From assembly GCF_004210375.1 (NCBI RefSeq), contig NC_134833.1, forward strand, positions 144,390,127-144,454,126: a DNA stretch of 64,000 nucleotides, written 5' to 3'. The DNA is from Tachypleus tridentatus. Lineage: Eukaryota; Arthropoda; Merostomata; Xiphosura; Limulidae. Below, piece after piece: positions 21,286 through 64,000 of this stretch. A program made the position numbers and the translations under genes. Numbering within the stretch: position 1 is the stretch's first letter; each line of letters opens with the position of its first letter. Below the pieces are notes generated by a model, which was given only the letters and a program-made list of their open reading frames with translations, made no database searches and was not told the origin of the DNA.

Positions 21286-21964
21286 ATCTAGTTTAGCTAA
21301 AGTCCATTCTAATAAATAACACTCTGTTTTCTTCCACCCAGAAACTCTTGTCCAATTAACTCACTTATCTCCCACACCTATAGAGATAATTTTATTAGCC
21401 TTTAAAGTGGCATCTTGTCAAATGTTCTGTAAAATACAGATACACCACATTTACACAAGCAGTGTCTTTTGGTAAGAATGTCAAGAGATTTTTAAGACGA
21501 GGTTTTCTCTCAGTAACAATATGGATATTATTCAATAACATTTTAAAATTACTTTCCAAATCATCTTTTTTTTAGATTTTTTTCGTCAAATGTACAAAAA
21601 TGATTTGAAGTACTTAAGGCGTCATAAGCTAAAGCTGACAAGGTAAGTTCACCTTTTTATGATAACGATTAGAGAGAGCCACTTTTAACTGATGTATTAC
21701 CAGAGGTGTCAGTGTATGTCAGCCTGTTTTTAAAATTATCACATGTGTTGATAATTGTTACTCATATTCCTTAACATACAATTAGTTTTATCTAAATATT
21801 AATAAAAACAGTAATGTTATTTGTAAACGGAACTGGGAGAAGTCTGGATGTGAACGTGTTGGTCTACCATTCATGAGATTCAAGGTTCGAAACTTCATAA
21901 AACGCTGAAGCAACATAACATGGTTTTCTCAACTTCTTACTGATAAACACTTGGCAGGAACAAA

Positions 21965-23015
21965 ACCAGTTTATGCACATGTAGGCCTAAGGCTGGCGTT
22001 GGACAGACACAACAAACAGTGTAGAAAATGTAGGCCTAAGACTGGCGTTAGACAGACACAATCAACAGTGTAGGAAATATAGGCCTAAGGCTGGCGTTAG
22101 ACAGATACAACAAACAGTGTAGGAAATGTAGGCCTAAGACTGGCGTTAGACAGACACAATCAACAGTGTAGGAAATGTAGGCCTAAGACTGGCGTTAGAA
22201 AGACACAACCAACAGTGTAGGAAATGTAGGCCTAAGGCTGGCGTTAGACAGACACAACAAACAGCGCAGGAAATGTAGGCCTAAGAATGGCGTTAGACAG
22301 ACACAACAAACAGTGTAGGAAATGTAGGCCTAAGACTGGCGTTAGACAGACACAATCAACAGTGTAGGAAATGTAGGCCTTAGATTGGCGTTAGACAGAC
22401 ACAACCAACAGTGTAGGAAATGTAGGCCTTAGACTGGCGTTAGACAGACACAACCAACAGTGTAGGAAATGTAGGCCTAAGGCTGGCGTTAGACAGACAC
22501 GACAAACAGTGTAGAAAATGTAGGCCTAAGACTGGCGTTAGACAGACACAATCAACAGTGTAGGAAATATAGGCCTAAGGCTGGCGTTAGACAGACACAA
22601 CAAACAGCGCAGGAAATGTAGGCCTAAGACTGGCGTTAGACAGACATAACCAACAGTGTAGGAAATGTAGGCCTAAGACTGGCGTTAGACAGACACAATC
22701 AACAGTGTAGGAAAAGTCGAAATAAGTTTGGCGCTAGACAGACACAACCAACAGTGTAGGAAATGTAGAATTAAGACTGGTGTTAGACAGACACAAGAAA
22801 CAGTGTAGGAAATGTAGCCCTAAAACTGGCGTTAGACAGATGCAACAAATAGTGTAGGAAATGTTGGCTAAGACTGGCGATAGACAGACACAACCAACAG
22901 TGTAAGAAATGTAGGCCTAAGACTGGCGTTAGACAGACACAACCAACAGTGTAAGAAATGTAGGCCTAAGACTGGCGTTAGACAGACACAACAAACAGTG
23001 TAGGAGACCTAGCTA
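21965..23015 (+). repeat. 49-bp satellite array, left arm, about 21 units
   Basis: Unit phrases in order are GTGTAGGAAATGTAGGCCTA, AGACTGGCGTTAGACAGACA and CAACCAACA, 49 bp in all. Most units keep TAGGCCTA. Common variants are ACAAACA or ACAATCAACA at the end, and GCGCAGG for GTGTAGG. Units near the right edge (22700-22900) are more worn. 49 is not a multiple of three and there is no long frame across the array, so it is non-coding. Confidence 0.95.
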
Positions 23016-24173
23016 CTATGAAAAAATTGACGAGTTAAACAAAACATAATGATAACTGCAAGCAGAAGGTTATGAAAGTTTAAGATCAGTACAAAACAGA
23101 ATGAATAATAAAATGAGGTCAGCTTTGTATCTATCTAGCTCAACACAAACTTGGACTATGAAAGACAATAGATAACAACAGTGTGTGTGTGTGTATATAT
23201 AGATGGAGAGTATTCAGGTATTGTGTAAGCATTACTGTTCAGTAATGTGTGAGAAAGTTCTGATTTAAGTCCAGGCTATATTTTACGCTACTTATCGTGC
23301 AGACCAATTTGATTAGAATGAAAACAATGTGACTTTTAATATTTAATGCTGCTCTAAAAATAAAATAAAAAACAAGTCCAATAACAGAGATATTTTTATA
23401 AGGTAGATTAATTTCAAAAACACATATTTAATGACTGCCATTTGGCTAGACACGTAGTGAATGGTCATCAATTCTTAATTTCTTTGACGTCATAAAAATG
23501 ATTGAGTTTATTAAGTTGTTAAATGTTTCCAATATATATTTCCTAATATAATTTAGAGAATATCGATAGACCAAGGTGAATTTTACGTTGTTTTGATTTT
23601 AATTATTGAGAAATGAAAGCATATATTCTAATGAAAGGCCTTTCTAACAGCATGTTTCTATATCATAATCTTTCGTATTGTAGAAGTCAACGAATTCAGA
23701 TGTGAAACATCGAACTCAAAGATAATTTAAAATTAGAGTTTTTACCAAAAACTATAATCTTTTCCATACGTAGTTCGGTTACATGAGAGTAAACATTTAT
23801 ACCAAATGACAGAGAAATTTATTAAACATCACTACATCTGTATTTCAGTTAACAATAGTTCTAGTACCTCTGGTTTAGTTGATCATCCAGAAAAGGTGAG
23901 AAGAATGTTGATAAATAAATATAAACAACATGAAACAACTGAATAGAAACTTTAAATAATACCCACTCTGGACCATCTTGCGTTAATCATAATTTGAAAA
24001 TTTGAAAAATCTCTAGTGTAAACATTGTTATGTAGCCACATTTATTGAAATAAATAAATATTAAAAATATTTCTTTGTTAGTTCTACATGTAGTGTCACC
24101 TATATTAAACTACTATCGGCCCTAGTTCTGGAACCACTGATTTAATCAGTGTAATATATATGTATATACATCT
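23016..24173. other. Left-arm unique sequence, no gene
   Basis: Mirrors 58680-59864. It holds a short GT run near 23182-23195. Parts (23270-23560) also resemble 28930-29130 in direct orientation, so the arm contains internal duplications. Confidence 0.6.
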
Positions 24174-24424
24174 TGTTTGTTTGTTTTGAATTTCGCACAA
24201 AGCTTCTCGAGGGCTATCTGCGCTAGCCGTCCCTAATTTAGCAGTGTAAGACTAGAGGGAAGGCAGCTAGTCATCACCACCCACTGCCAACTCTTGGGAT
24301 ATTCTTTTACCAACGAATAGTAGGATTGACCGTTACTTTATAAATCCCTCACGGCTGAAGGGGCGAGCATGTTTGGAGCGACGGGGATGCGAACTCGCGA
24401 CCCTCAGATTGCGAGTCGCACGCC
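24174..24424 (-). mobile_element. First-family SINE, 5'-truncated, shared by both arms
   Basis: Full body and tail; the tRNA-like head stops at AGGCGTGCGACTCG in reverse. Flanked by TATACATCT (24165-24173) and TATATATCT (24425-24433). The same insertion with the same target duplication is present in the right arm at 58415-58676, so it predates the duplication. Confidence 0.85.
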
Positions 24425-24649
24425 TATATATCTTCTAAAAAGCACTTAATTAATGTTTCTTAACGTATATAAATTTTACTTTAATAGGCTTGATAAACAT
24501 TATATTTATATCTGTATAACGTATTATGGTTGATAGATATAAGGAAGTGATCAGAATTAGAAAATAGTAAATAAATATCAAATTACGATATAATAAAGGT
24601 ACAGTGAAAACTTTGATAAATAATGAATCAAATAAATTTTATTTTTAGT

Positions 24650-24765
24650 TAAGCAGAACGCTATAAAATGGGCTATTTGTGCTGTGCCAACCTCAGGTAT
24701 TGAAGACTAGTTTCTAACGTATACGACTTCAGAAATGTCTCTGTGCCAGTATAAACAAATATTCC
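24650..24765 (-). mobile_element. Degenerate second-family-type SINE
   Basis: Plus-strand order AAATGGGCTATTTGTGCTGT, CAACCTCAGGTATTGAAGAC, CTCTGTGCCAGT fits a reversed tRNA-derived SINE similar to 11140-11245. Mirrored at about 58080-58200. Confidence 0.45.
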
Positions 24766-25999
24766 ACAAAACTTTGCATATAACTGTCTTTGCAGAGTTA
24801 AATATCAGTGGGATGCTTTGAAAAATCCGCATTTTAAGTCAAAATTAACCATTGAAGTACGGTAAAGTGATCAACGTGGTGCTATCTATTTGTCATGTTA
24901 TGTGTCTAAAAACTATATATTATTTTATTGATTTATTAATATATATAATTTACATTATTTCGCTTCACAATAAAGAATAGAATTATACCGCGAAATAATA
25001 TCGATACACTAACGTTGTAGTCGTTAATTATATGGTTCTCGAAGCTGTTTTGTTTAACAATAAAGTAGCTAATTTGTTACATGAGCCGTTTCTGACTCAG
25101 TAGTATTTGTGATGATTTATAACACTAAAATGGAGTTATAAGAATGTGTATATTTGTTATTAATAAATTTCTGATTTGAAATGGTTTATAAGCCACTAGA
25201 TGGCGACAAAATATTCTGACATTTAAGATTGATGAAACTGTCCCAAAGTGAAAGGAGACATTTGGCATAAAAGTGAAGAATATAAAATTAAACAAGTGAG
25301 ATAACTAGATCAATATAAGTTTTGTGACCACAAAACAAGCTTAGGATATTTATTATAGATCAGCTTTCTTCCACTGAAGTGACATTCGTGTTAATTATAG
25401 GTGGATATTTATATCTGTACTGTCATCGTTTCTCTGAATGATGTTAGTATCCATTAGGCATAACAGATACTCCACTCTTCCAGTCTTGTATGATGTACAG
25501 CTAAACGTATCATTGGTATAGGCTGCAGAATGTAAACAATGAAGAAGATAACACTGATTTGTAAATGAGTGTAGTTATATCACAATGTGATGTTGTGTGG
25601 GCAGCTGGTTAAATCTCAGCATCCTTCAAGCTCAACATGGTGGAATTACCTCAGCACCACTCTCAATCTTTGATGGAGTCACAGAAGCTGGATAGATAAA
25701 CACTAGGGTGAGACAAGGCTTTTTCTCTGTATAAATTATATGAAAAATCAGTTATGCAGCTTTCCTTTTTAGTTTCTACTACGTCACTTGACAATATGAA
25801 CCTGTCTGCAACATACATTATGTTACTCTTACTTTAAAGTCAAGGTAGGGAGTATAGTAGGTTACTTAAACCATATTTAAATTGGAATACTAACAGATTG
25901 TGATATAAAAGGTACCATGTTAGGTATATCAGTTGCAGTTTGAAATTATTTCCAAAGTAAATGGATGGAATAGCTGAAAGCAACATATATATCGCTATA
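24766..25999. other. Left-arm unique sequence, no gene
   Basis: Mirrors 56830-58080. The part at 25820-25935 is the single-sided partner of the large hairpin at 56832-57023. Confidence 0.55.
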
Positions 26000-27152
26000 T
26001 ATTGAAACGACTAAATTTAACAACATCAAGCGTTGTGAAAAATCAAAATAATGAATATTTATCAATTCTCCAGTCAGTTTTAAGTCACTAATGTATGCAC
26101 CACTCAGTTATCTTTCTAGCTGGCATGTGTTCGACCAACAGCACAACTATTTTGTGCTATTTCAATTATTATTATAAGTGAATTAGATTAATAGTCCCGC
26201 CAAGAAAACAAACAAACAAAACACATGATATTGTATTACACAGTTTGTAACTGCTGTTTCTAAATTATGCACGTACAATAATAATATTCACCTCAACAAC
26301 ACGAGAGCACAGTTTTACTGACATTCGACACACGTTTACCGTTACCATACAGGGTGACACTCAGCTCAGAACCAGCTTAGGTGTTATGTTTATGAATTTT
26401 GCTTTTTATTAACACAGAATAGTGTTGGTTATGTCGATTAGAGTAAGGTTAGGGAAAAATATTTCACTACAGTTATCTTTCGTAAATCAAAAACCACAGT
26501 AAAGTGAACAAACTGACAGACTTCAGACTTGTCAGACTTCAGACAGTTTGTTCCGTTTACTGTGGTTCTGTTTTCAATATTTGCTACAACGATAATATGT
26601 TATTATAATAAGTACAGTATTGTTATATTTTGTGATATACAGTTATCAATCCAGAATTTTATTAACAAAATTTTGATAACGTATTGTCGTGCCTAGGGTT
26701 GAGAATAGGAGACGATACAAACGTTTGAGTTTAAAGGACAAAAAATTAATCATTTGCTAAGTTTAAATATTTTATTTTTAGTTTGTTTTAAATTATGGAC
26801 AATGATTTTTCAACCCTACATATGTATTGGCCAATTACTTACGGATAGCATTTCTTGTTTTACATTGTCTGTTATTTAAATTCGAAACATACAAAATTAT
26901 TACTGTAATTCATTTGACAAGCATCTGTAATATCTGGTAACTTATTTTGATAACACAGAACTTTGATAATATTAAATCCGTTAATACTGGGGCATTAAAA
27001 TCAGAATAGAACAGTTTGAGTTCTTGTTTCTCGTTATGATAATAACTTATTATGCTTGGTAGATCACGTGGTGTAGAAGAAATTAACGTACTTTTAAAAA
27101 CGTTTTTATGAAGTTAACTTTATATCCTGAATGACATTTTACAAAGTAAATA
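26000..27152 (+). repeat. Dispersed repeat R, copy 2
   Basis: Contains the R blocks TATCTTTCGTAAATCAAAAA, GCAACGATAATATGTTATTA-like, and the CGTGGTGTAGAAGAAATTAA region. It is interrupted at its right end by the Tc1 element at 27153 and resumes with TTATCTTTTAAAATATCTGA after 28308. Confidence 0.75.
26492..26567. repeat. Hairpin in repeat R
   Basis: AACCACAGTAAAGTGAACAA (26492 onward, through AACTG) pairs with CAGTTTGTTCCGTTTACTGT through GGTT, ending at 26567. The loop region repeats CAGACTTCAGACTTGT. Mirrored at about 56269-56345. Confidence 0.8.
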
Positions 27153-28306
27153 TACTCTTCAAAACAAGAAACGAAAAAGGGATATTTTTGTTATTTTAAA
27201 GAGAAATATATGTAATAACGTTACAAGCTCAGAGTATGTGATGTTACACGTCTTAAGGCACTGATTGTCAGACCAAAATTACAATAAAAGTTGTGCACTT
27301 TGAAAACGAAAAAAACATCGAATTTTCGCCAAAACACATTCTTGTCCAATAAATTTGTTTGAGAGATCTGCATGTTCTGCAAGCGCAACATGTGCAAAAT
27401 CCCTATAAAAGTGACGGGTTCCCGGTTTCCATAGCTCAGTGTTAAGCCATCGACACGCAATACAGTTAAGCCAAGATTGACTGAAGCAGAACGCAACAAT
27501 GCCATTGGTCGCTTGAAAGCAGGCGAATCTCGATCAGATGTTGCCAGAGCTGTGAATGTCCACCCAAGCACCATCACAAGGCTATGGAATCGTTACCAAC
27601 AACATGGATCAACTCGTGACCGTCCACGATCTGGCATACCACGTGTGACCACGCCCGCACAAGATCGCTACATTGGGTTACGTTACCTTCGTGATAGGAC
27701 CACCACTGCGACGTCTACTGCCTCAACTATACCAGGGCTGCGTAGGATTTACGAACAGACCGTACGCAACCGTCTACGAGTTTCTTAGGCCACATGTGCA
27801 AACCATCATGGTGAACGTCAACGACGTTTTTCAACATGACAACGCCCGTCCTCACACAGTCCGACTCACCACTGTCTTCTTGAGACACCACAACATCAAC
27901 GTTTTGCCCTGGCCTTCCAGATCACCAGATTTAAACCCCATCAAACATCTTTGGGACAAGTTGGACCGACGTCTGCGACGGCGACAACAAAAACCGCAGA
28001 CTCTACCTCAGCTTGCAGCAGCTTTGCAGGCTAAGTGGACAACCATTCCACGGGATTTGATTCGTCATCTCATCGCTTCCATGGGCAGGAGATGACAAGC
28101 AGTTATTGATGCTCACAAGGGGCATACTCGTCATTGACGTTGAGTGACGTTAAACTTCAACTAGTGAGCATGGACATCGCCTTTGCAGACGTTGGATGTT
28201 CAGCAGTGAATGTGCAAAGTTTCATACATGTCATACAGAACTACCCGAAATAAACTTGTTAACTTGTCTCAAATTTTGGCTTTTGCGTTTCTTTTTTCGA
28301 AGAGTA
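27153..28306 (+). mobile_element. Tc1-like DNA transposon, internally deleted, left arm only
   Basis: Inverted ends TACTCTTCAAAACAAGAAAC and, on the opposite strand, TACTCTTCGAAAAAAGAAAC are flanked by TA on both sides (27151-27152, 28307-28308), the target of Tc1/mariner elements. The right arm shows the uninterrupted site at about 55670-55700 (AAAGTAAATAAATTATCTTT on the minus strand), so the insertion followed the duplication. Confidence 0.93.
27477..28095 (+). pseudogene. Tc1-like transposase, internal deletion
   Basis: The N-terminal part, opening from 27477, reads NNAIGRLKAGESRSDVARAV, NVHPSTITRLWNRYQQ and RPRSGIPRVTTPAQDRYI, the paired helix-turn-helix DNA-binding region. At about 27775 the frame shifts and jumps to EFLRPHVQTIM, VFQHDNARPHTVRLT and SPDLNPIKHLWDKLDRR. 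About 110 residues, including the first catalytic Asp of the DDE triad, are missing. The second Asp (HDNAR) is kept; the third, normally Glu in NPIE, is Lys. So the element cannot encode active transposase and was presumably moved in trans or decayed after insertion. The start is not fixed; full-length relatives are about 340 residues. Confidence 0.92.
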
Positions 28307-28539
28307 TATATTATCTTTTAAAATATCTGAAATATTCTCTTCACTTAGTTCACTTGTCCCCCACACCTATAAAAATAGTTTTTATAAGCTTTTGTGTAAC
28401 TCCTTGTCAAACAGATACACCAAATATACAGAATCACCCTAAGCAGTAACGTTTAAAAAGAATGTCTGAAGGTTTGGACACGAGATTTTCTATCAGTGAA
28501 AATATGTTTACTCTCCAATAACATTCTAAAGTTTATAAC

Positions 28540-28745
28540 ATGTTTTATTAAATCTTTCAGCCAGTCGTTTTCTAGTACATCTTTCTGATGTCCTGTTTCA
28601 CCAACGTTCCTGGTATTCAATAATATTATAAAAGTCTCGTGCTACCAGTCAATTCATAATTCTAAAATTTGTGATGCTTTTCTTTAATTTTATTTCTGAT
28701 ATCCTGTGTTAGCCAACCTGGTGTGTTACTTGCAGCTGTACTTAT
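28540..28745 (-). pseudogene. LINE fragment (CR1-like linker before reverse transcriptase)
   Basis: Minus-strand frame reads NTPGWLTQDIRNKIKEKHHK, then a stop, then ELTGSTRLL. This resembles the region between endonuclease and reverse transcriptase in CR1 elements. Mirrored at 55255-55450. Confidence 0.55.
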
Positions 28746-29635
28746 CTTTCTATAAATAAAATATATATACACGATTTAAGGAATGTAAGGTATGTTGAGC
28801 TAAAGATGGCAAGGTAAGTCCATCTGGTTGCTCTCTTTCAACACAGCAGTTCTAGAATAGAAATGGTTGTGCCTGAACTGTAGAGGTTTTAAAGACAACA
28901 AACTTCTATTAACATGCGATATGGCTTTTCGTTTTAACACGTTGTATTGCACTTAGAATAAAACATAGAAACAAGTCCAATAAACAAGATATTTTTTAAA
29001 AGTTATTTTCGTTTCAAACACACGTATTTAATTACCACAATCTGTTTAAACAAGTAACGTATCATCATCAGCTGTTAACTTTCTTTGACGCCATAAAAAT
29101 GACTGAGTTTAATATTTATATGGAAAACGTTGATAGTCCACAGTGAATTATAGTTTATTTTATTTTTAATTATTGATAAATGAAAGTGTATATTCTGAGA
29201 AAAACATTTCTAACAGCATCATTGTATATCATAATCTAACGTGTTATACTAATCAACAAATTCTGACATCAATAACTAATAGTAAAGGTCCAAGTCATAG
29301 TTTTATTTTATGGTACTTTTGCGAACCAGTCTGAAAATTAATTACCAAGTAAAAGGGTTAACAGAAGTCTTTATTTGTATGTGCTTATGGTATAGTAATA
29401 ATCATAAAAAAATATTTTTTAGGTGCTAATTAAACTTAAATCACCCAGTGAGGTGAAGAGAAACTAAAGCTTGTAACCTAAATTCCTGCCCAGAACAAAC
29501 TGGGATCATTCCTTCCAAGTGACACCCGAATGTTATTGATATTTATGTATTTGGAAAAATTATTTATAACTGGACATTAGGGTCATTCGTGTAAAAATTT
29601 TTTTCTATAATAAATATATGTATATTTCTCATTTT

Positions 29636-30310
29636 GACAGATAATTAACAAAATTAAAGATAAGCACGAGAAATTTAAAAAGTTTAAATTCACTAATATT
29701 ATATAAAATATAAATATAATATAATATTATATAAAACTTAAAGGTTTAAGGAATGTGGCGAAACAGGGAATTAGAACCCCCAAAAGAATGTATAAAAATA
29801 CATTTACACATTAAACACTTAAACATTAACAGTAAGGATTTTTATGCGAAACAAAATGTTAGAATCGGGACTTACTCCTTGTGGAATGATGAAGAAAGGC
29901 TTATAATTGATGATTATAAAATGCTTTTTCTTCCTTAGTTTTATTTAATTAAGGCTTAATGAGTATTAGTCATCTTTAAGAATTGATAGCATGAACAAGA
30001 TAACTGCATATATTCTGAAGCTGTTAAATAAATTTGGGAACTTTAAAGAATGATAAGGCTACTCAGCCAGATAATATTTCTCTGGGTGTTTTAAATTACA
30101 CCAAGGATTGGATATGTGAGCTATTTGTCTCCGTTTTTGGTAAGCCGTTGAAAAGTGGAGAAGCACCACCAGATTGGAAATTAGGTAATGTCGCTTCTAT
30201 CTTCGAGAAAGAAAATATAAGTTGTGTAAATAATTATAGGCTTATTATATTAGTTGTTAGTTGTGTGAAAGTCGTTGGAATATCTTATAAAAGAAAAACT
30301 TTTTAAAGTC
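29636..30310 (+). pseudogene. CR1-like LINE fragment, left arm
   Basis: Pieces in order: INKIKDKHEKFKKFKFTNI (29640-29700), an AT-only insertion, a second frame with KDFYAKQNVRIG and LIIDDYKM (29753-29938), then 30034-30306 with LKNDKATQPDNISLGVLN, GEAPPDWKLGNVASIFEKEN and NNYRLIILVVSCVKV. The last matches the N-terminal fingers of a CR1 reverse transcriptase (pattern K...A.GPD.I..RVL and WK.A.V.PIFKKG). Frames change twice, so it is dead. Mirrored at 53691-54300. Confidence 0.8.
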
Positions 30311-30579
30311 ATTTAACAATATTTAGAATATTATCGGATAGACAACATAATCTCTCTATGGGAAAATCTTACCTTCACCTTTCTGTCACATTTTGAAAAT
30401 GTGTCTGTATATGTAGATGAGGGTAAGGATGTATATTTGTTTTTTTATTAGTAGATTTTGAGAGCTTGTAAAAGGATGGGAGTGAAAAGGAGAAATTTGG
30501 TGATGATGGTGTGTGCGTTGGCTTATTGTTGAAATTTGTTGTTTAGAAAATTGCTTGTAATCTTCGTTAGATAGCTCAT

Positions 30580-31060
30580 TCATAAATAAATATACATGTA
30601 GTGTTACGTACATTGGCAAAACAAATCTCCATTTAAATACTAGAGTTTGTGATCACTTAGGAGTATCTAACAGAACTAATATTTTACTACTTAAACCAAG
30701 CCATTCATTCAGTCATGCACTTTTTGAAATTACAGGTCATAATGTTTTATTTAACTATTTCTCTGACATAGGCACAGTATCTTCAGAACTTGAACTCTAT
30801 ATTAAATAAAGTCCCGTCATTAGTAAAAAACAGCCCAACCAGCTCTTTAGACCAAAGTTATGTAAGTCAGCTGCTGAGTAATATATATATATATATATAT
30901 ACATCCACTAACAGTTTTTCTAATAATTAAATGAACTAATTATTATGTTACCTTATAATTGTAGTAATGATCGCCTTTCTAACACAATTTTCAGATATTC
31001 CTGATGATGGAACAAGTTATTCCAAAACGTTAAAACTTATAAATAAAATCTTGAAGGTTT
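30580..31060 (+). pseudogene. Penelope-like element 3' end with GIY-YIG endonuclease remnant, left arm
   Basis: Frame from about 30588 reads CSVTYIGKTNLHLNTRVCDH, then SFSHALFEITGHN and ELELYIK followed by a stop near 30812. YIGKT followed by an Arg and a His at the usual spacing is the pattern of the GIY-YIG endonuclease that closes the Penelope-like polyprotein. Downstream, CTGATGATGGAACAAGTTAT then TCCAAAACGTT (31001-31033) forms a small stem and resembles the terminal motif of such elements. The reverse transcriptase part is missing. A TA run (30880-30901) lies in the 3' region. Confidence 0.75.
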
Positions 31061-31089
31061 TGTTACCCGTCTTCATCTTCACTACTTTG

Positions 31090-31340
31090 TTATGTTATTA
31101 AGAGAAACATTCGATTTAAGATGTATTTTTTAAAATTTATAATACGTTGAATTAGAAGATGGGACAGTCGAGTTGTACCAATAGATCCCTTATTATCCCT
31201 AAATATTATATTTTTTTATTTTATATGAAAGGAAAGTTCCTCTTAACGGCAACTATTTAAACTTTATATTTAATCGATATTTAACATTTCCCACACATGG
31301 TTCTAAAGGCTTTGGATAAACCTTGCTGTTCATCATATAT
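31090..31340 (-). repeat. Arm segment with three copies in the window
   Basis: Reverse match to 52625-52870 and 19545-19790. Block TAAATATTATATTTTTTTAT and neighbours are shared. Confidence 0.65.
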
Positions 31341-32119
31341 ATTCATCAATTCACTTTTCATGTGACCTAGATCTTCATATGCTAACTGTAAACTTGACCA
31401 TAAGTTGTTGAAATAAAGATAGATGGCACTTTGTCAGGTTTCGAATTCCTTTACCCTTCTACTATGAATAGACGACTCTTCACTGTGGTGTTTTTTAAAT
31501 TGGTTTTCAGAATCAGTTTAAGTGTCAGATATAATATCAATATACATTTACCATCCAGAAGGTGAACTATATGTATTTTATGTTTCTCTTAAATACAAAA
31601 TATTCACATCGAAAACTTTATACGCAACATAAACATTATTGTTTTCCAATGATAGAATATGAACAATATTTAGAGAGTGAAGTGAAACTATTACAATATT
31701 TAAATGATTACCGAATCTTCAGCTTGGAACATTCCACTTGGTACCCGGATGTGAAAACCACTACACTGTATTTAAGTGTAAACCTAGAATCATATTTCAT
31801 TTTTGCAATTTTGTTTCTTTATTAGTTTTTGTGTTTTAAATGAGCATAAAGCTACATCATGATATTTTTGTACTCGGCCCACAACAGGTATTGAAACCGT
31901 GTTTTTAGTATTAAAAGCCTTTCGATTTTGCAAAGATTCAAAACTGGGTATTATTGAAATTATGTTTACGCTGCTAGTGCATAGTTTGCAATCTGTATGT
32001 TATTAATACCATACTTAATCTAAAAAATTAAAACAATGTTATTGAAAACATGTCTGATCTCTAAACAGTTTAAAATTGATAATTATATTATATAACATTT
32101 TATATTTGCGATTGGTCTG
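31341..32119. other. Left-arm sequence, no gene
   Basis: Mirrors about 52330-52620. A short frame at 31562-31825 has no recognisable family. A worn second-family-type SINE lies at 31841-31935 (GAGCATAAAGCTACATCATG, then GGCCCACAACAGGTATTGAA). Confidence 0.5.
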
Positions 32120-33830
32120 TTTTATAAGTTTATTATTATAGTATAAGCATATCACTTGGTACCTGTTTTAAACCAAGGTTCTGTATTTTAATTAATAATT
32201 TCAAACCAAAATAAAGTTAAATATACAAATAGAACTAAAAAGGTTACGTACAAATTCATGATTATTGTAATAGACTGATAAGATGAACGTAACTCACACC
32301 ACAAGATATACAAAGTTCATAAATGTTAAAATGCATTTATCTGTTAATAATGTCATTGGCCGTAATTCCTAAAGCATCTACAGATCTTCGTCCAGTATAG
32401 GATATTTAACATAGGTCTAAACCAATATACCAAGTTAAAATTTCAAAATCATTTCCATAATTATAAAGTTGATAAGAACCACTTTAAAAATTATTTTAAA
32501 CGGTATTCTACTGAATATTGGAAAAATCAACTAACTATGAAGAAAGATGGAGTGTTTCATTACATAAGTAGTTTGATCAACTGTATTTGTCACTCAGTTT
32601 TCACAAGATTTATCCTTTAAATTAAGTTCTGCTTCTTAATATTTCACATATTTTAAAAGATGATTTACTTACCTTGAAAAATGTCATTCTGGATAAAAGA
32701 TAATTTCGTAAAATATTTTGAAAGGTTTTTAAAAGAACATTAATTTCTTCTACACCACGTGATCTACCAGGTCTAATAGGTTATTATCATAAGGAGAAAC
32801 AGGAACGAAAGCTCTCTATTCTGTTTTTGAAGTCCTAATATTAACGAACTTGATCATATGAAAGTCCTGTGATATCTAAATAAGTTACAAAATGTTATGA
32901 TTGTTATTTAATGTGAAAGCTTGTCAAGTGGAGTACAGAGAAAAGTAATAATTTTATATGTTTTGAAATTAAACAACGGACAATGAAAAAGAAGAACTGT
33001 TTTGTTTTGTTTTGGATTTAGCGCAAAGCTACTCGAGGGCTATCTGTGCTAGTCGTCCCTAATTTAGCAGTGTAAGACTAGAGGGAAGAAAGCTAGTCAT
33101 CATCACCCATCGCATACTCTTGGGGTACTCTTTTACCAACGAATAGTGGAATTGAACGTCACATAATAATGTCCACACGGCTGAAAAGGCGAGCATGTTT
33201 GGTGCGACGAGGATTCGAATCCGCAACGCTCGGATTACGAGTCGAGTACCTAAACCACCTGGCCATGATCGGGCCTGAGAAATGTTATCCGTTGACAACA
33301 GGATTGTCATCATTATCTATAATTTGAAACAAAGTGACAATAAAATATGTCAACTTAGCTAATAATTAATTTTTGTCATTTAAACTGAAACGTTTCTATC
33401 TTATTATACTCTAAACCTTTACCACAACAAGACGTTATCAAAATTCTGATAATAAAATTCTGAATTGATATATCGCAAAGGATAATACTACTAATAACAA
33501 CATATTATCGTTGTAACAAATATCGAAAAATAGAACCACAGTAAACAGAACAAACTGTTCGAAGTCTGATATTAGATAAACTAGTATAATGACCAATATT
33601 TTTGGTTGTGTTTCTGTTGTTGTTTTCTTTCTCACTGAAAATGACGCACAACTGTGTCGAAACAAGTTTCTCCGATAGAAAGCTTTTGACAGTTCGTTAT
33701 TTTTAGTGTGGTTTTTAATTGACGAAAGATAAACTGTAGTGAAAATCTTTTTTTCTCTAACTTTATCCCAATCGACTATTACCTTTCACGAACAATAAAG
33801 GAAAGTCAAAATAAGTATATTAATGAAATC
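32120..33830 (-). repeat. Dispersed repeat R, copy 3 (left arm)
   Basis: Reverse counterpart of 50550-52330. It contains a long foldback, with AACCACAGTAAACAGAACAA near 33534 pairing with TTCGTTATTTTTAGTGTGGTT near 33693-33713. Its loop holds CTGAAAATGACGCAC (33635-33649) and GTGTCGAAAC (33654-33663), the same motif type as at 1149-1175. The SINE at 33000-33276 is inserted in it. Confidence 0.8.
33000..33276 (-). mobile_element. First-family SINE shared by both arms
   Basis: Full-length copy. In reverse the head reads AGGCCCGATCATGGCCAGGT and the tail TTTGCGCTAAATCCAAAACA. It occupies the same site as 51091-51364 in the right arm, with matching flanks (GATAACATTTCT on one side, AGTTCTTCTTTTTC on the other), so it predates the duplication. 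Confidence 0.9.
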
Positions 33831-34835
33831 TGAACCAGACGTTACATTATATCTTGTGAAAAATTATCCCTTGAAATAGTTAGAAAGAAAAAAATAATGT
33901 ACTTTTCTACTACATAGGTAAAATCTCTAATAGATTAAAATTAATATTAATATAATAATTAATAAGAAATATTATAATAATTTTATCAGTAATATTACTT
34001 ATACACCATTGATTTAAGTCTTTAAGTTTAGGAATATTGATGAGATCAAGTCAAATCATATTCTCAATCAATATTTCTAAAGAGATTTCTTGATTCCTAC
34101 ACACATTTAACAACCTCAATGTCAACGAGAGATATGACATTTTATATTCATCGTTAAGTAATAATACAGATACGATTGTAAGTGTTGAAGTGTAGAACGT
34201 TTATGAAATAGTGTTCAATGCTTGATTAGGTTTGATATTTAGCTACATGTTCATATAAAAGAAAATGTAATATTAGATTTGATTTTCATTTTTAACATGT
34301 CACGTATGATATTACTATTGTACACATTAATCCATTGTTGATTTATAAAAATATTAAGGTATTAAAACTAGAATTACACGAGGTTTTTTCTCTGTTTCAA
34401 ATAAGGTCAGATATCCGTTATAAAACCTCCCTTTGGAGTTTTTAGTAAGTCAGTTGACAACGGGAATCTTTCTCGAGAGTAACTTATGTGACTCCCACTT
34501 TCATAAAGCCAATTTAGAGAGTATAACAGTCTACTTGAAAAATATTTAATTTAGAGATACTAACAGCATATGTGGCAAAAGGTTCCAGGAAAGACATATC
34601 GAGCCCAATCTGAAACAATTTCCACAAGGAATGAATAGAACAATGAAAAAAACACATTTATATTGTTAATTGTTAAAAGTACTAAATGTAACAATATCCA
34701 TCAAGTTCTAACATATTATCTAACAATCATAAAACATTAGTGACTGTCTTATCAAATATATTTTTAGGAGTTTATAATACCAATTATAGAAGCAGACTGA
34801 GGAAATACAATGAGACTTTAGACAAATTCATCAAA
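33831..34835. other. Left-arm sequence, no gene
   Basis: Mirrors 49514-50549. In a 60-base sample (34381-34440 against 49905-49970) I count three substitutions and one single-base indel. Confidence 0.6.
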
Positions 34836-35075
34836 GATGTTATATAATATTCTCTATGGTTTTATTTACATTGAAGATGTAGTATGATATTCTTTATGGT
34901 TTTATTTAAATTAAAGATGTAGTATGATATTCTCTATGGCTTTATTTACATTGAAGATGTGGTATGATATTGTCTATGGTTTTATTTACATTGAAGATGT
35001 AGTATGATATTCTTTATGGTTTAATTTACATTAAAGATGTAGTATGATATTCTCTATGGTTTTATGTAAATTCTT
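34836..35075 (+). repeat. 40-bp minisatellite, six units
   Basis: Units GATGTAGTATGATATTCTCT then ATGGTTTTATTTACATTGAA start at 34836, 34876, 34916, 34956, 34996 and 35036. The right arm (49359-49513) has four units, so copy number differs between the arms. Confidence 0.95.
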
Positions 35076-35439: not shown

Positions 35440-35930
35440 TTGAAAATCAAAATGGCGCCAATTTTATGGTATCTTCCTAAAGTATATATATAGACATTGA
35501 TTGAACATCAAAACTTTCTAAGTACACATTACATTATCCAGCGTCAGGGATAAACTTTAGGGCAAAACATGTTTAAAATGGTGCCGTTGTTGAGAGTCAT
35601 AACGACGACACGACAGTAAAATGTGGCCTATTGTGACCTGAGTGTTTACATAGAATACACATTGGCGCATCAGTCCCAGATAAAAGAACTATGAGTTAAA
35701 AACTGTGACAAATGCGTTGTCTAGTTAAGACAACTTCCTCTTTCTGATCGTTACGGAAACAAGACGGTCAAAATCCAATAGAGGGTTCTATTTGGAAAAG
35801 ATTGTTTTCACGTTTTCCATTTCCAACTGACACGGAGCCGAGGCTTGAACACAGGACCATAGTTCATGTATGGAACAAGAACAGCATTGATAGCGACAGA
35901 GCAGACACATTTAGCTGCGGTGTTGACAAG

Positions 35931-36611
35931 CTATTTTCCGCCAATACTAACGTGGCCTGGTATCCAGAACTGAATAGAAGTAGATGTTAAAGAGAAATGG
36001 GCCAGTCGGTTTTGAATATCGGCAAGAACAGGGTATGAACTAAAGTGAAGCGACTCCAGGACAAGTAGAGAACTAAGCGAGTCAGTATGAAAAGTACAAT
36101 TTGAGTACTGCTTAGATTCTAGATGATCCAAGGCAAGAGAAATAGCGTACAGTTTAGCAGCGAACACAGAAGTTGTATAGGGTATTCTGCATGGAAATAT
36201 CGAACCCCAACAAACCATGGCAGAACCCACGTAGTCACCTTATTTTGACTCATCTGTACAAAGAGGAAGGGAAGGATGGTTCGAAAGATGTTCAGCAGAT
36301 AACAGACAGTATTTCCAATCTAGAGTGTCTGCTTTTCTCAGATAATTTAAAGATAGGTCATATTTGGGGACTGTTAGAAGCCATGGTGAGAAGTGCTGAC
36401 CAGTGAATACAACAATGTTATCCAACGACAGACCCAATTCATCCAAATGTGCCTGAATACGAAGACCAAAATGGCAGATCGTCTTTTCTGGAAAAGCATG
36501 ACCCACTGAAGAAGAAAAACACAACCCCAGGTGAGATGCTGTGGTAAGGAACAAAGTTTCGAAGCATACACTAAAACAGTTGCAAACGGCGGAGGCGGAG
36601 AGAAGGTTCAT
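35931..36611 (-). pseudogene. LINE RNase H domain, broken, left arm
   Basis: Minus-strand pieces give LSLDNIVVFTGQHFSPWLLT and SLNYLRKADTLDWKYC, the lead-in, then MGSAMVCWGSI, AKLYAISLALDHLESKQYSN, FHTDSLSSLLVLESLHFSS and QFWIPGHVSIGGK. RNase H needs Asp (TDGS), Glu (AELYA), Asp (TDSLS) and a late His. Here the AELYA Glu is Lys, and the segment with TDGS is interrupted by a frameshift at about 36240. So the domain is inactive. Confidence 0.85.
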
Positions 36612-36706
36612 GAGACTCTATATACGAGCTCTGAACTGGGGAGTGCGGAAAGCCCCTGATGATGAATGGGGTCCAGCATCTTAAAAGTCGAGGTCTTGGC
36701 AGAGAC

Positions 36707-36925: not shown

Positions 36926-38034
36926 AACGTCACAGATACGGAGTTCAGGATCTAAGTGAATACCCCGTTGGCAGCAAAAGTGTATGCAAACGGTTTTAGA
37001 GAGAAAGAAGTATCAACCATTTGCTGTGGAGAACATCCAACACTGGTACTTGGTTGACCCTAGCCCAAGTGGACCAGCCGAGTGACCGCGGGGAGAGCAC
37101 CTCAAGGCTGCCAATCTACAGGAATTCAAGGCCAAAGTGGTGTCTTAAGGTTGGACCCCTTAATCACCAGGATCCTGTCTTCCCTATTCAGGGGTCGCCA
37201 CGCAAACCCAGAGGAGGTAAACTAAAAGAAGCAGAACTTTCTATGGGAAGTTTCCTCACCATGTACAGGAATCCACATCTAGAGGTTGCCCTAAAGACAA
37301 AATACAATAGGATCATTATTTGTTGCGTATTTTAAAGCACGCTGTGTTCTATTGGTGAATTAGAAAAATTTATTCCCCCCAATTTTTTATTTTACTCAAT
37401 TTAGGTACTAAACTCTCATTTTATGAGAAGCCAAAATAATGAATACATTTCAATTCTCCATTAAATTGTAACTCACTATTGTAGACACCACACAGTTGCA
37501 TTTCTTGCTGGCATTTTCCGACCTACAGCACAACTGTTTCTGCTACTTCAGGTACAGTTATCATTTATTTAGATTAACAGTCCCGTTCAGCTCTTTATTG
37601 TACTTTAAAATAATTCGTGTTATTAAATCACTGGAGAGTTGTTTCCTATTCGCCATGATGACCAAACAGATAATGACAAAAACGGCGCTAAATTGCCAAA
37701 ATTACATTTATTGCTGGCTAAATTCCAACAATTATGAACCCAGTGTCTAGTTGTAAAATAGTATAATGTAGTTTATTCGTCAAACTAAACATAATATTTA
37801 CGGGAACATCAGTTTTCTCATACGTTGTGAAATGTACGAACGCTTTCTGCTCCTCCGATTTTTGGTTATTTGTTTATAAACAGTTTATTTGTCGTTTAAT
37901 TTACATAAAAATTTATGTTGATGTGGGTTAGTATGATATTTATAATATACTATACGTCTATTAGCCTAATTTTGATACTTTTTAAGTTATGAGTAAAAAA
38001 AACCACTCGGGACGCAGGGGTACGAACAGTTTCT

Positions 38035-47582: not shown

Positions 47583-47718
47583 ATAATTCTTGTTATGTTT
47601 TGGTTTCTACAGGCTAAAGCTAACGGATGCCTAAAATGTTTAAATCTTCTTTTTGTAAACACATTTAAATTGACAAAGTTTACTGTGTGATCAACAGGGA
47701 ACTTTAAAGAAAATATAG

Positions 47719-47865
47719 AAACTGTAGGCACACCATTATATAACGTTAGGTCTGGTATTTATTACAAACTGTAGGCATTAATATATTAGATAACGTTAGG
47801 TCTGGTATTTATTACAAACTGTAGGCATTGATGTATTAGATACCGTTAGGTCTGGTATTTATTAC
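47719..47865 (+). repeat. 50-bp tandem triplication
   Basis: Units at 47719, 47766 and 47816 begin AAACTGTAGGCA and end TTAGGTCTGGTATTTATTAC. The first is slightly shorter. Units 2 and 3 differ at only a few positions. Confidence 0.95.
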
Positions 47866-47889
47866 AAGCTTTTTAGATTATTTTATATG

Positions 47890-48138
47890 TTTGTTTGTTT
47901 GTTTTGGAATTTCGCACAAAGCTACTCGAGGGCTATCTGTTCTAGCCGTCCTTAATTTAGCAGTGTAAGACTAGAGGGAAGGCAGCTAGTCATAACCACC
48001 CACCGCCAACTCTTGGGCTACTCTTTTACCAACGAATAGTGGGATTGACCGTCACATTATACACCCCCACGGCTGAGAGGGCGAGCATATTTAGCGCGAC
48101 GCGGGCGCGAACCCTTACGCGCTTGGCCATGCCAGGCC
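47890..48138 (-). mobile_element. First-family SINE with 12-bp target duplication
   Basis: Flanked by TTATTTTATATG at 47878-47889 and 48139-48150. The body is well preserved. The head is internally shortened, losing the B box region (GCGGGCGCGAACCC then TTACGCGCTTGG on the plus strand). Confidence 0.93.
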
Positions 48139-48154
48139 TTATTTTATATGACCA

Positions 48155-48245
48155 AGAAAGCTAAATCTGACAAAGAAGAAGGTCGAAACGTTGTTCGCTC
48201 CTCTACATAAACAATTTTCTCAACCCATACCAACCGTTTTTACTT
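48155..48245 (+). repeat. Degenerate relative of the 1118-1236 foldback
   Basis: Keeps AAGGTCGAAACGTTGTTCGC, TTTTCTCAACCCATACCAAC and CGTTTTTACTTATATA in the same order as 1165-1236. The left inverted arm is not recognisable. Confidence 0.7.
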
Positions 48246-48340
48246 ATATAATAGATTATTTTATCTTATCATTAAAATACTCAAAACATCACTATTATTT
48301 ATTTGATATAACTGTGTAATAATTAATAATTTATGGTATG

Positions 48341-48589
48341 TTTGTTTGTGAATTCCACGCAAAGCTACTCGAAGGCTTTCTGCACCAGCTGTCCCTAATT
48401 TAGTAGTGTAAGACTAGAGAAAAGGAAGCTAGTCATTACCACCCACCACCAACGAATAGTGGAATTGACTGTAACTTTTTAACGCTCTCACGGTTGAAAG
48501 GGCGAGCATGTTTGGTGCGACGGGGATTCGAACCCGCGACTCTCAAATTACGAGTCGAAAACCTTAACCCACCCGGTCATGCCGGGTCC
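48341..48589 (-). mobile_element. First-family SINE
   Basis: The B box in reverse is GGGTTCGAATCCCCGTCGCA and the head reads CCCGGCATGACCGGGTGG. It has an internal deletion in the body between CCACCACC and AACGAATAGT on the plus strand. Confidence 0.88.
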
Positions 48590-49358
48590 CTTTATAATAT
48601 GTACAATACAATGCAAGAACAAGAGGTTGAACTTCAAGCGGTAAAAAAAAGTTTTAATCGATAAGGAAGTTAAAAATCTTCTCAAGGTCGAATATTGGAA
48701 TAAATGTTTGTAAGAATAAAGTATTTGTGTGTAGAGAGAAGATATGTCTGCATCTGTGTCATATCTCTGCATAAAACCAATTTTACAATAAATATACTGA
48801 AGAAAATCACCTGTGATTAACTGAACATAGAAATTCAATGTTAATTATTTTTATCATTTTAAGTTTAAAATCTGTTAGTATAGACGCAGGATTTGAAGCG
48901 GGAACTAATTCCTTTGTCTCTCTAAGAAGTCTAATATATACACATGTATTCATTTTCATACGAGCGCAATGCATAATTTATAGGAAGAGCAATGTTTATT
49001 TGCAGGCCATAGAACGTATATTATTGTTCTAAAATATGTGGAACGTACTTTCATGTCCCATTAGTATATTAATTATTGCAATTTGACAATGAGTGTAGGT
49101 TCATTTTGTACACAAAATCAATACTCGACCATTTGTATCACCAGCGCCAAACATTTAAAACTGTTTCCTATTTCCACGTTTATTGTAGTCTTCTAAAAAC
49201 AATACTTTGTCAATAATTTAGAACAACGAACACTAGACCAGAATAGTTCTTTATTTCTGTTTACAGTTGGTAATTTATCTACTGCTTCCGTCCAATAAAA
49301 TCATTGGACACTTTGATGAGTGATTATAATGTTTATAACTTAACGTGAAGAATTTACA
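48590..49358. other. End of right-arm-only block, no gene
   Basis: Short frames at 48548-48838 and 48838-49032 have no family. From about 49270 the left-arm match resumes. Confidence 0.45.
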
Positions 49359-52870: not shown

Positions 52871-52879
52871 GTGTTTCTC

Positions 52880-58676: not shown

Positions 58677-59864
58677 AGATGTATATCCATATATATTACA
58701 CTGATTAAAACAGTGTTTCCAAAACTAGGGCCGATAGAAGTTTAATATAGGTGACACTACATGGAGAACTAACAAAGAAATATTTTCAATATTTATTTAT
58801 TCCAATAAATGTGGCTACATAACAATGTTTATGCTAGGGATTTTTAAAAATTTCAAATTATGATTAGTGCAAGATGGTACAGAATGCCTATTATTGAAAG
58901 TTTCTATTCAGTTGTTAAATGTTGTATTCATTTATTGATCAACACTCTTTTCACCTACCCTGGATGATCAACTAAACCAGAGGTACTTGAACTATTGTTA
59001 ACTGAAGGACTGATGTAGTAGATGTAGTGATGTTTAATAAATTTCTCTGTTATTTGGTATAAATGTTTACTCTCATGTAACCGAACAACGTATGGAAAAG
59101 ATTATAGTTTTTGGCAAAAACTCTAATTTTAAATTATCTTTGAGTTCGATGTTTCACATCTGAATTCGTTGACTTCTACAAAACGAAATATTATGATATA
59201 GAAACATGCTGTTAGAAAGGCCTTTCTTTAGAATATATGCTTTCATTTCTCAGTAATTAAAATCAAAACAACGTAAAATTCACCTTGGTCTATCGATTTT
59301 CTCTAAATTATATTAGGATATATATATTGGAAACATTTAAGAACTTAATAAACTCAGTCATTTTTATGATTTCAAAGAAATTAAGAATTGATGACCATTC
59401 ATTACGTGTCTAGCCAAATGGCAGTCATTAAATATGTGTGTTTAAAGCTAATCTACCTTTTAAAAATATCTGTGTTACTGGACTTGCTTTTTATTTTATT
59501 TTTTTTTATTTTAAGAGCAGCCTTAAATATTAAAAGTCACAATGTTTTCATTCTAATCAAATTGGTCTGCCCGCTGAGTAGCGAAAAATATAGCCTGGAC
59601 TTAAATCAGAACTCTCTCACATATTACTGAACAGTAATGCTTACACAATGCCTGAATACTCTCCATGTATATATAAACACAAACACTGTTGTCATCTATT
59701 GTCTTTCATAGTCCTAGTTTGTGTTGACCTGGAGAGACACAAAGCTGGCCTTATTTTATTATTCATTCTGTTTTGTACTGATCTAAACTTTTATAAACTT
59801 CTGCTTGCAGTTATCATTATGTTCTGTTTAACTCGTCAATTTTTTCATAGTAGCTAGGTCTCCT
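58677..59864. other. Right-arm sequence, no gene
   Basis: Mirror of 23016-24173. 58740-59040 has a further copy in the spacer at 38035-38340. Two short frames (59388-59630, 59648-59857) have no family. Confidence 0.6.
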
Positions 59865-62800
59865 ACATTTCCTACACTGTTTGTAGTGTCTGTCTAACGC
59901 CAGTCTGAGGCCTATATTTCCTACATTGTTTGTTGTGTCTGTCTAACGCCAGTCTTAGGCCTATATTTCCTACACTGTTTGTTGTGTCTGTCTAACGCCA
60001 GTCTTAGGCCTACATTTCCTACACTGTTGGTTGTGTCTGTCTAACGCCAGTCTTAGGCCTACGTTTCCTACACTGTTTGTTGTGTCTGTCTAACGCCAGT
60101 CTTAGGCCTATATTTCCTACACTGTTGGTTCTGTCTGTCTAACGCCAGTCTTAAGCCTACATTTCCTACACTGTTTGTTGTGGATGTCTAACGCCAGTCT
60201 CAGTCCTACATTTCCTACACTGTTTGTTGTGTCTGTCTAATGCCAGTCTTAGGCCTACATTACCAACACTATTGGTGGTGTCTTTCTAACGCCAGTTTTA
60301 GGCCTACATTTGCTACACTGTTTGTTGTGTCTGTCTAATGCCAGTCTTAAGCCTACATTTCCTGCAATGTTGGTTGTGTCTGTTTAACGCCAGTCTTAGG
60401 CCTACATTTCCTACACTGTTTGTTGTGTCAGTCTAACGCCAGTCTTAAGCCTACATTTCCTACACTGTTGGTTGTGTCTGTCTAACGCCAGTCGTAGGCC
60501 TACATTTCCTACACTGTTTGTTGTGTCTGTCTAATTCCAGTCTTAGGCCTACATTTCCAACACTGTTGGTGGTGTCTTTCTAACGCCAGTTTTAGGCCTA
60601 CACTGCTACACTGTTTGTTGTGTCTTTCTAACGCCAGTTTTAGGCCTACATTTGCTACACTGTTTGTCGTGTCTGTCTAATGCCAGTCTTAGGCCTACAT
60701 ATCCTGCAATGTTGGTTGTGTCTGTCTAACGCCAGTCTTAGGCCTACATTTCCACATTTCCTACACTGTTTGTTGTGTCTGTCTAACGCCAGTCTTAGGC
60801 CTGCATTTTCTACACTGTTTGTTGTGTCTGTCTAACGCCAGTCTTAGGCCTACATTTCCTACACTGTTGGTTGTGTCTGTCTAACGCCAGTCTTAGTCCT
60901 ACATTTCCTACACTGTTTGTTGTGTCTGTCTAATTCCAGTCTGAGGCCTACATTTCCAACAATGTTGGTGGTGTCTTTCTAACGCCAGTCTTAGGCCTAC
61001 ATTTGCTACACTGTTTGTTGTGTCTGTCTAATGCCAGTCTTAGGCCTACATTTCCTGCAATGTTGGTTGAGTCTGTTTAACGCCAGTCTTAGGCCTACAT
61101 TTCCTACACTGTTTGTTGTGTCTGTCTAACGTCAGTGTTAGGCCTACATTTCCTACACTGTTTGTTGTGTCTGTCTAACGCCAGAGTTAGGCCTACGTTT
61201 CATACACTGCTTGTTGTGTCTGTCTAACGCCAGTCTTAGGCCTATATTTCCTACACAGTTTGTTGTGTCTGTCTAATGCCAGTCGTAGGCCTACATTTCC
61301 TACACTGTTGGTTGTGTGGTGTCTAACGCCAGTCTTAGGCCTACATTTGCTACACTGCTGGTTGGGTCTGTCTAACGCCAGTCTTATGCCTACATTTCCT
61401 ACAATGTTGGTTGTGTCTGTCTAACGCCAGTCTTAGACCTGCAGTTTCTACACTGTTTGTTGTGTCTGTCTAACGCCAGTCTTAGGCCTACATTTCCAGC
61501 ACTGTTGGTTGTGTCTTGCTAACGCCAGTCTTAGGCCTACATTTGCTACACTGTTTGTTGTGTCTGTCTAATGCCAGTCTTAGGCCTACATTTCCTGCAA
61601 TGTTGGTTGTGTCTGTCTAACGCCAGTCTTAGGCCTACATTTCCTACACTGTTTGTTGTGTCTGTCTAACGCCAGTCTTAGACCTGCATTTTCTACACTG
61701 TTTGTTGTTGTCTGTCTAACGCCAGTCTTAGGCCTACATTTCCTACACTGTTGGTTGTGTCTGTCTAACGCCAGTCTAAGGCCTACATTTCCTACACTGT
61801 TGGTTCTGTCTGTCTAACGCCAGTCTTAAGCCTACATTTCCTACACTGTTTGTTGTGGATGTCTAACGCCAGTCTTAGTCCTACATTTTCTACACTGTTT
61901 GTTGTGTCTGTCTAATGCCAGTCTTAGGCCTACATTTCCAACACTGTTGGTGGTGTCTTTCTAACGCCAGTCTTAGGCCTACATTTGCTACACTGTTTGT
62001 TGTGTCTGTCTAATGCCAGTCTTAGGCCTACATTTCCTGCAATGTTGGTTGAGTCTGTTTAACGCCAGTCTTAGGCTTACATTTCCTACACTGTTTGTTG
62101 CGTCTGTCTAACGCCAGTCTTAGGCCTATATTTCCTACACTGTTTGTTGTGTCTGTCTAACGCCAGTCTTAGGCCTACATTTCCTACACTGTTTGTTGTG
62201 TCTGTCTAACTCCAGTATTAGGCCTATATTTTTTACACTGTTTGTTGTGTTTGTCTAACGCCAGTCTTAGGCCTACATTTCCTACACTGTTTGTTGTGTC
62301 TGTCTAACGCTAGTCTTAGGCCTACATTTGCTACACTGTTTGTTGTGTCTGTCTAATGTCAGTCTTAGGCCTACATTTCCTGCAATGTTGGTTGTGTCTG
62401 TCTAACGCCAGTCTTAGGCCTACATTTCCTACACTGTTTGTTGTGTCTGTCTAACGCCAGTCTTAGACCTGCATTTTCTACACTGTTTGTTGTTGTCTGT
62501 CTAACGCCAGTCTAAGGCCTACATTTCCTACACTGTTGGTTCTGTCTGTCTAACGCCAGTCTTAAGCCTACATTTCCTACACTGTTTGTTGTGGATGTCT
62601 AACGCCAGTCTTAGTCCTACATTTCCTACACTGTTTGTTGTGTCTGTCTAATTCCAGTCTTAGGCCTACATTTCATACATTCTTTGTTGTGTCTGTCTAA
62701 CGCCAGTCTTAGGCCTGCATTTTCTACCCTGTTTGTTGTGTCTGTCTAACGCCAGTCTTAAGCCTACATTTCCTACACTGTTGGTTGTGTCTGTCTAACG

Positions 62801-64000
62801 CCAGTCTTAGGCCTACATTTCCTACACTGTTTGTAGTGTCTGTCTAACGCCAGTCTGAGGCCTATATTTCCTACATTGTTTGTTGTGTCTGTCTAACGCC
62901 AGTCTTAGGCCTATATTTCCTACACTGTTTGTTGTGTCTGTCTAACGCCAGTCTTAGGCCTACATTTCCTACACTGTTGGTTGTGTCTGTCTAACGCCAG
63001 TCTTAGGCCTACATTTCCTACACTGTTTGTCGTGTCTGTCTAATGCCAGTCTTAGGCCTACATATCCTGCAATGTTGGTTGGGTCTTTCTAACGCCAGTC
63101 TTAGGCCTACATTTGCTACACTGTTTGTTGTGTCTTTTTAACGCCAGTCTTAGGCCTACATTTGCTACACTGTTTGTCGTGTCTGTCTAATGCCAGTCTT
63201 AGGCCTACATTTCCTGCAATGTTGGTTGTGTCTGTCTAACGCCAGTCTTAGGCCTACATTTCCTACACTGTTTGTTGTGTCTGTCTAACGCCAGTCTTAG
63301 GCCTGCATTTTCTACACTGTTTGTTGTGTTTGTCTAACGCCAGTCTTAGGCCTACATTTCTTACACTGTTGGTTGTGTCTGTCTAACGCCAGACTAAGGC
63401 CTACATTTCCTACACTGTTGGTTCTGTCTGTCTAACGCCAGTCTTAAGCCTACATTTCCTACACTGTTTGTTGTGGATGTCTAACGCCAGTCTTAGTCCT
63501 ACATTTCCTACACTGTTTGTTGTGTCTGTCTAATGCCAGTCTTAGGCCTACATTTCCAACACTGTTGGTGGTGTCTTTCTAACGCCAGTCTTAGGCCTAC
63601 ATTTCTCACACTGTTTGTTGTGTCTGTCTAATGCCAGTCTTAGGCCTACATTTCCTGCAATGTCGGTTGAGTCTGTTTAACGCCAGTCTTAGGCCTACAT
63701 TTCCTACACTGTTTGTTGCATCTGTCTAACGCCAGTCTTAGGCCTATATTTCCTACACTGTTTGTTGTGTCTGTCTAATGCCAGTCTTAGGCCTACATTT
63801 CCTGCAATGTCGGTTGAGTCTGTTTAACGCCAGTCTTAGGCCTACATTTCCTACACTGTTTGTTGCATCTGTCTAACGCCAGTCTTAGGCCTATATTTCC
63901 TACACTGTTTGTTGTGTTTGTCTAACGCCAGTCTTAGGACTACATTTCCTACACTGATTGTTGTGTCTGTCTAACTCCAGTATTAGGCCTATATTTTTTA
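59865..64000 (-). repeat. 49-bp satellite array, right arm, more than 80 units, open at window end
   Basis: Unit phrases CCTACACTGTTTGTTGTGTC, TGTCTAACGCCAGTCTTAGG, CCTACATTT are the reverse of the left-arm unit. Marker variants recur at long range: TGTTGTGGATGTCTAACG at about 60181, 61856, 62592 and 63474 (the last two steps are 15x49+1 and 18x49), always after a TGGTTCTGTCTGTCTAACG unit. The first units of the array (TTTGTAGTGTC then CAGTCTGAGG) recur at about 62831. So blocks of many units have been copied as wholes. Confidence 0.96.

Follow-up and report, generated by a model that had tools for sequence, protein, structure and literature searches.

We examined a stretch of 64,000 nucleotides from the horseshoe crab Tachypleus tridentatus (positions 144390127-144454126 of contig NC_134833.1, hereafter C9; this whole stretch is termed the window, and its numbering is extended past 64000 for features that run beyond it), which contains a giant imperfect palindrome whose arms carry copies of an EamA transporter gene. 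Self-BLAST of the window returned minus-strand blocks in mirror order, the largest of 5.3 kb, and the top block scored 7167 bits as against at most 68 bits in 20 mononucleotide shuffles. Chaining of these blocks places the left arm at 12453-37594 (plus orientation) and the right arm (minus orientation) at 42867-64000, continuing to C9:144464548 (window-numbered 74422), which gives an inverted repeat of about 62 kb with the outermost 10.4 kb of the right arm lying past the window end. A preliminary description of this DNA rightly proposed such a palindrome, with arms of at least 16 kb and a spacer of 5.3 kb; its start at 21.3 kb lay too far inward, the true span being 12.45-74.4 kb.

The mirror chain consists of ten blocks showing 85.1-95.5% identity except for the fourth. 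From the outer ends inwards, left 12453-16402 pairs with right 74422-70498 (block 1), 16391-18431 with 70219-68190 (block 2), 18590-19537 with 67952-66995 (block 3), 20947-21123 with 64939-64785 (block 4), 21959-27152 with 60921-55691 (block 5), 28293-31648 with 55706-52322 (block 6), 32086-32577 with 52333-51843 (block 7), 32566-34992 with 51799-49351 (block 8), 35535-36624 with 46021-44922 (block 9) and 37024-37376 with 43294-42942 (block 10). The fourth block, at 72%, reflects a choice made in chaining; around it an alternative alignment of 19539-23005 with 66524-63065 reaches 92.2%. The inner arm ends are fixed by a 77-bp match (37518-37594 with 42867-42943, 96%), leaving a spacer of 5272 bp (37595-42866). 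The first 550 bp or so of this spacer are a continuation of the left arm in another unit: L031, a piece of the distant island described below, matches 38145-32570 unbroken at 90.6%.

The copy of the EamA gene in the left arm is a single open frame of 292 codons on the plus strand (16178-17053; Pfam PF00892, E 6.3e-13). Its right-arm counterpart contains stops and is split by a 278-bp block, while the spacer holds a broken copy as fragments on the minus strand (40404-41018) with three stops in the longer matching stretch; copies occur in both orientations. The EamA domain of the unit gene, which we take to be SLC35-like, scores 49.6 bits against PF00892 in two stretches (curated cut-off 28.2). 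A PDB sequence search with the protein gave no match at E 0.01, and an NCBIfam search gave one match, far below its cut-off. Genome-wide (2,167,478,450 bases in 205 contigs), 142 rows match the unit gene, 11 of which cover at least 290 of its 308 residues without a stop at 78-100% identity; C9:144.40-144.76 Mb accounts for nine of these and the island for the other two. Besides the 292-codon left-arm frame, the open copies include three of 307 codons and one of 298. Rows on other chromosomes are distant (21-36% identity), some being full length and open. Such distant relatives, at about 24-36%, are grouped at C4:31.9-33.6 Mb, C6:132-146 Mb and C13:203.7-204.9 Mb, with many being stop-free in the match.

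The arms are not the only units of their kind in this region. Over the 259,874 bases that begin with the window (C9:144390127-144650000), we counted 83 repeat pairs of at least 1.5 kb and at least 85% identity, 44 of them direct (with a separation of at least 5 kb) and 39 inverted. Units recur in both orientations at about 85-98% identity across some 260 gap-free kb, and between 76 and 155 kb the direct units are spaced roughly 19-24 kb apart. There is no scaffold gap between the arms: the window and the next 195,874 bases contain zero N. The genome search scores the best candidates only, and its lists of arm-probe matches are lower bounds. Among the matches listed, those to whole arm segments fall on C9 at 144.37-144.76 and 147.51-147.73 Mb; the matches elsewhere in the genome are to dispersed repeats contained in the arms, for instance an element at 36.0-37.0 kb that is matched at 80-83% elsewhere on C9 and on C10. 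On these matches the arms appear as local duplicates and not as a dispersed element. The copies exceed 1 kb, are about 90% identical or more and, as far as the listed matches go, are not dispersed, as is typical of local segmental duplications; the assembly runs gap-free through them at C9:144390127-144650000, and the copy at 147.51-147.73 Mb is bounded by gaps.

Across the ten aligned blocks, counted outside the tandem repeat described next, the arms differ by 1374 mismatches at 21036 sites (6.5%; Kimura two-parameter distance 0.0685) and by 97 gap events. Calculated per 250 sites, identity lies between 0.664 and 0.996 and has a spread of 0.0415, compared to 0.0156 for a binomial expectation; this excess is perhaps due in part to poorly aligned windows. 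In the aligned blocks we saw no broad tract over which the arms are near-identical. The arms also differ in their content. A 49-bp tandem repeat is present in 21 copies in the left arm (21979-23005, plus strand) and in 84 copies in the right arm (59862-63996, minus strand). A 1140-bp block at 27153-28292 (plus strand), with broken Tc1/mariner-like transposase frames (HTH and DDE_3) and a 30-bp inverted pair at 90%, is found in the left arm and in two island units (L004 and L005), and is absent from the right arm and from a third unit (232-238 kb). A 437-bp block (31649-32085, plus strand) is likewise absent from the right arm, from which it was probably lost, because other units have it. Conversely, a 3.3-kb right-arm stretch (46022-49350) stands opposite just 542 bp of the left arm, and the greater part of this stretch is found again at 169.8-174.0 kb with about 94% identity. 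An RNase H-like frame in the right arm (44939-45616, plus strand; Pfam RNase_H, E 1.1e-4, below the curated cut-off) probably belongs to a non-LTR retrotransposon; on the counterpart side, left-arm frames at 35931-36617 fall within the mirror block. Substitutions, insertions and losses between the arms bear out the earlier view that this is not one molecule read twice.

To which units the arms are most closely related was assessed with 500-base tiles, setting aside the near-identical copy at 147.7 Mb, and with trees of two arm segments whose rows covered at least 60% of the segment at no less than 78% identity and were no longer than 1.5 times the segment. The mirror arm ranks first for 14 of the 50 left-arm tiles and 13 of the 63 right-arm tiles, as compared to 20 and 15, respectively, for a third unit at 222.7-237.6 kb; eight of the right-arm tiles lie within the 49-bp tandem repeat, which they match. 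A tree of 12 rows joins the left arm to the units from 147.55 and 147.60 Mb (support 98/94) and the right arm to its own 147.7-Mb copy (100/100), and in a 7-row tree the left arm pairs with a unit at 164 kb (90/95). Over the sequence compared, both tiles and trees suggest that the arms are mostly not each other's closest relatives. A 2.4-kb dispersed repeat (13205-15612) points the other way: it is carried by both arms and by one additional unit of the 259,874-bp stretch, it also lies within the matches at 147.56 and 147.60 Mb, and it has 82-84% copies on other chromosomes. Its site is uninterrupted in two units, as checked base by base, and the coordinates of three more agree. Because both arms and the third unit share this repeat and other units are without it, the arms have a common origin within a subset of units, with exchange between units or independent duplication thereafter.

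Taken together, these sequence comparisons make it very probable that the palindrome represents two oppositely oriented units of a local segmental-duplication array carrying EamA transporter genes; though large, this is a local duplication of an ordinary kind. The array would have grown by repeated inverted and direct duplication, through ectopic recombination or template switching between its repeats. Thereafter the arms would have diverged without broad homogenisation of one by the other, with sequence moving between units. The EamA copies would be the likely payload, some of them still open and many decaying. Several observations weigh against parts of this picture. The longest exact run between the arms is 214 bases where about 111 are expected, and tiles near 15.5-16.0 kb of the left arm reach 97.6% and 98.2%; given such very similar tiles and this run, the arms may have undergone local conversion. 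The 7-row tree joins the right arm next to the left arm and its partner, with weak support (80/83). From 144.65-144.76 Mb the tiles and trees take in only the short pieces L006 and L008, and from the 147.5-147.73 Mb contig only a minor part. As for the payload, the ratio of nonsynonymous to synonymous substitution (dN/dS) is 0.37-0.99 for the 10 pairs formed by five open copies, and so the constraint on these genes looks weak or recent.

About 3 Mb away lies an island of cluster sequence of about 220 kb (C9:147507008-147727554) with a 500-N gap at each end, which we read in parts (L029, L030, L031, L032, L033, L002, L004 and L005); it may contain additional gaps. The 9 kb around the palindrome centre recur there in inverted orientation (147712701-147721695); over a fetched 10 kb the copy, with both inner arms included, is 99.68% identical, with 6 substitutions and 16 gap openings in 10016 columns, most of the latter sitting in short single-base runs. 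Two further island pieces differ from the first cluster by 30 substitutions in 6223 columns and 26 in 5056. The three pieces together show 62 substitutions in 21,295 columns (about 0.3%), roughly 20-fold below the differences between the arms; for scale, the heterozygosity of the mangrove horseshoe crab is reported to be 0.8% (PMC7210998). The inverted copy ends at window position 30152, and for 3500-12400 and 12500-21900 of the window no such near-identical copy at 147.7 Mb was found among the matches listed. The segment 144.462-144.4695 Mb is present twice on the island, inverted, at 99%, and 144.490-144.500 Mb is present in direct orientation at 98-99%. Island sequence at 147.634-147.643 Mb is 97.9% like the units compared, and that at 147.5755-147.5855 Mb at best 94.6-96.3%. 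The island also contains a second inverted pair, L004 (C9:147552808-147558127) and L005 (147603228-147608429), centred near 147.5806 Mb, whose flanks are alike at 97.7% and 99.1% in two aligned pieces; beyond this centre the hit coordinates are too noisy for grouping palindrome centres.

The island is probably a contig of the other haplotype placed about 3 Mb away, and its simplest reading is as such a contig, or an unresolved part of the array, that has been misplaced. It could instead be a true second cluster, partly inverted, the pair flanking about 3 Mb that they could invert. The pieces that are 98-99.7% like the first cluster in both inverted (144.42-144.47 Mb) and direct (144.49-144.50 Mb) orientation, together with an extra 28-kb tandem copy, speak for this. 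However, the match to the window stops 3 bases before one 500-N gap, and the island's left end begins directly after another, at 147507008, all of its first 993 bases agreeing with 144478804-144479796, in direct orientation; beyond the gaps, in 4.4 kb on the right and 3.5 kb on the left, there are only short repeat-like matches to the cluster. With N gaps at both ends we favour misplacement over an inverted duplication 3.3 Mb away, and consider a true second cluster rather unlikely. Were the island correctly placed, an array with nested palindromes would be present twice on one chromosome, about 3 Mb apart, and the near-identical inverted stretches would let the intervening segment flip back and forth in the population. 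Whichever reading of the island holds, a second contig with the same palindrome centre makes it unlikely that the window itself joins two diverged haplotypes back to back, a worry raised in the preliminary description. Near-identical extra cluster material on another contig does mean that haplotype separation is probably imperfect here. Nevertheless, the join appears highly improbable in view of the unbroken sequence through and beyond the window, the repetition of the spacer and both inner arms on the other contig at 99.68%, the arm difference of 6.5% against about 0.3% for the likely allelic copy, and the recurrence of the arm units far more than twice. The worry is largely, if not wholly, answered.

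An origin of the palindrome by a single recent fold-back or breakage event, as the preliminary description had entertained, with the arms kept alike by arm-to-arm gene conversion in the manner of sex-chromosome palindromes, could draw on the mirror order across 25-31 kb, the old transposable-element insertion that the arms share, the tiles of up to 98% and the weak neighbour relation of the arms in one tree. Yet the arms are 93.5% identical at aligned sites, for the greater part of their length resemble other units more than each other, and consist of segments that recur many times in both orientations; as the mirror arm is the best match for so few left-arm tiles, a simple recent fold-back is not supported, and we regard this origin as improbable. 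The transposase and RNase H pieces within the arms might also recall a giant transposable element in which the arms are very long terminal inverted repeats. This is scarcely conceivable: apart from contained repeats, the listed arm matches are confined to the C9 clusters and include, on other chromosomes, no complete copy flanked by target-site duplications, the right arm lacks the transposase block, and the arm contents are common to head-to-tail units.

Clustered inverted and direct segmental duplications with a multicopy gene family offer the closest likeness: units of about 20 kb, mostly about 90% or more alike, lie in one chromosome region in both orientations, and their gene copies have decayed to varying degrees. 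Nothing basic is different here; the mix of orientations is nearly even. Mixed-orientation arrays are hotspots of copy-number change and inversion, and assemblies misplace haplotypes in them. The present case documents such an array in a chromosome-scale assembly, together with a contig that is likely misplaced, and serves as a warning on haplotype placement; the locus also indicates that transporter genes expanded locally. The ampliconic palindromes found on sex chromosomes of primates and other groups (e.g. PMC3723533, PMC11168930) share long inverted repeats, a spacer and multicopy genes; in contrast to their arms, homogenised above about 99%, those described here are mostly not sister copies and mismatch at 6.5% of sites. 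The mangrove horseshoe crab has large lineage-specific gene clusters, such as 79 carcinolectin-5b genes over about 850 kb, and the gene-cluster section of that report (PMC7210998) mentions neither EamA transporters nor orientation nor palindromes. For expansion of the SLC35G family, literature searches at the level of listings turned up only fungal work, and for palindromes and segmental duplications of spiders in chromosome-level assemblies only work on hexapods; they found nothing on horseshoe crab tandem duplication in connection with coagulogen and chromosome, and mostly nothing on palindromic inverted duplication in invertebrate tandem gene arrays with long-read assembly.

Scans of other kinds added little at the locus: a tRNA scan and Rfam at gathering thresholds gave no match, and one arm piece compared by blastn with phage records likewise gave none. 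In the genome, the coagulin (coagulogen) family, clotting proteins that mark horseshoe crabs, is represented by 19 stretches over the cut-off as compared to none in 14 control genomes. The spidroin N-terminal family matched neither this genome nor any control, a negative that by itself carries no weight against a spider origin. Outside the palindrome, the window contains a piece of a glycosyltransferase family 43 gene on the minus strand at 4487-4843 (Pfam E 1.9e-23). It also contains a repeat of about 720 bases at about 6195-6915 which, with copies at 94-96% identity on many chromosomes, is a young dispersed element.

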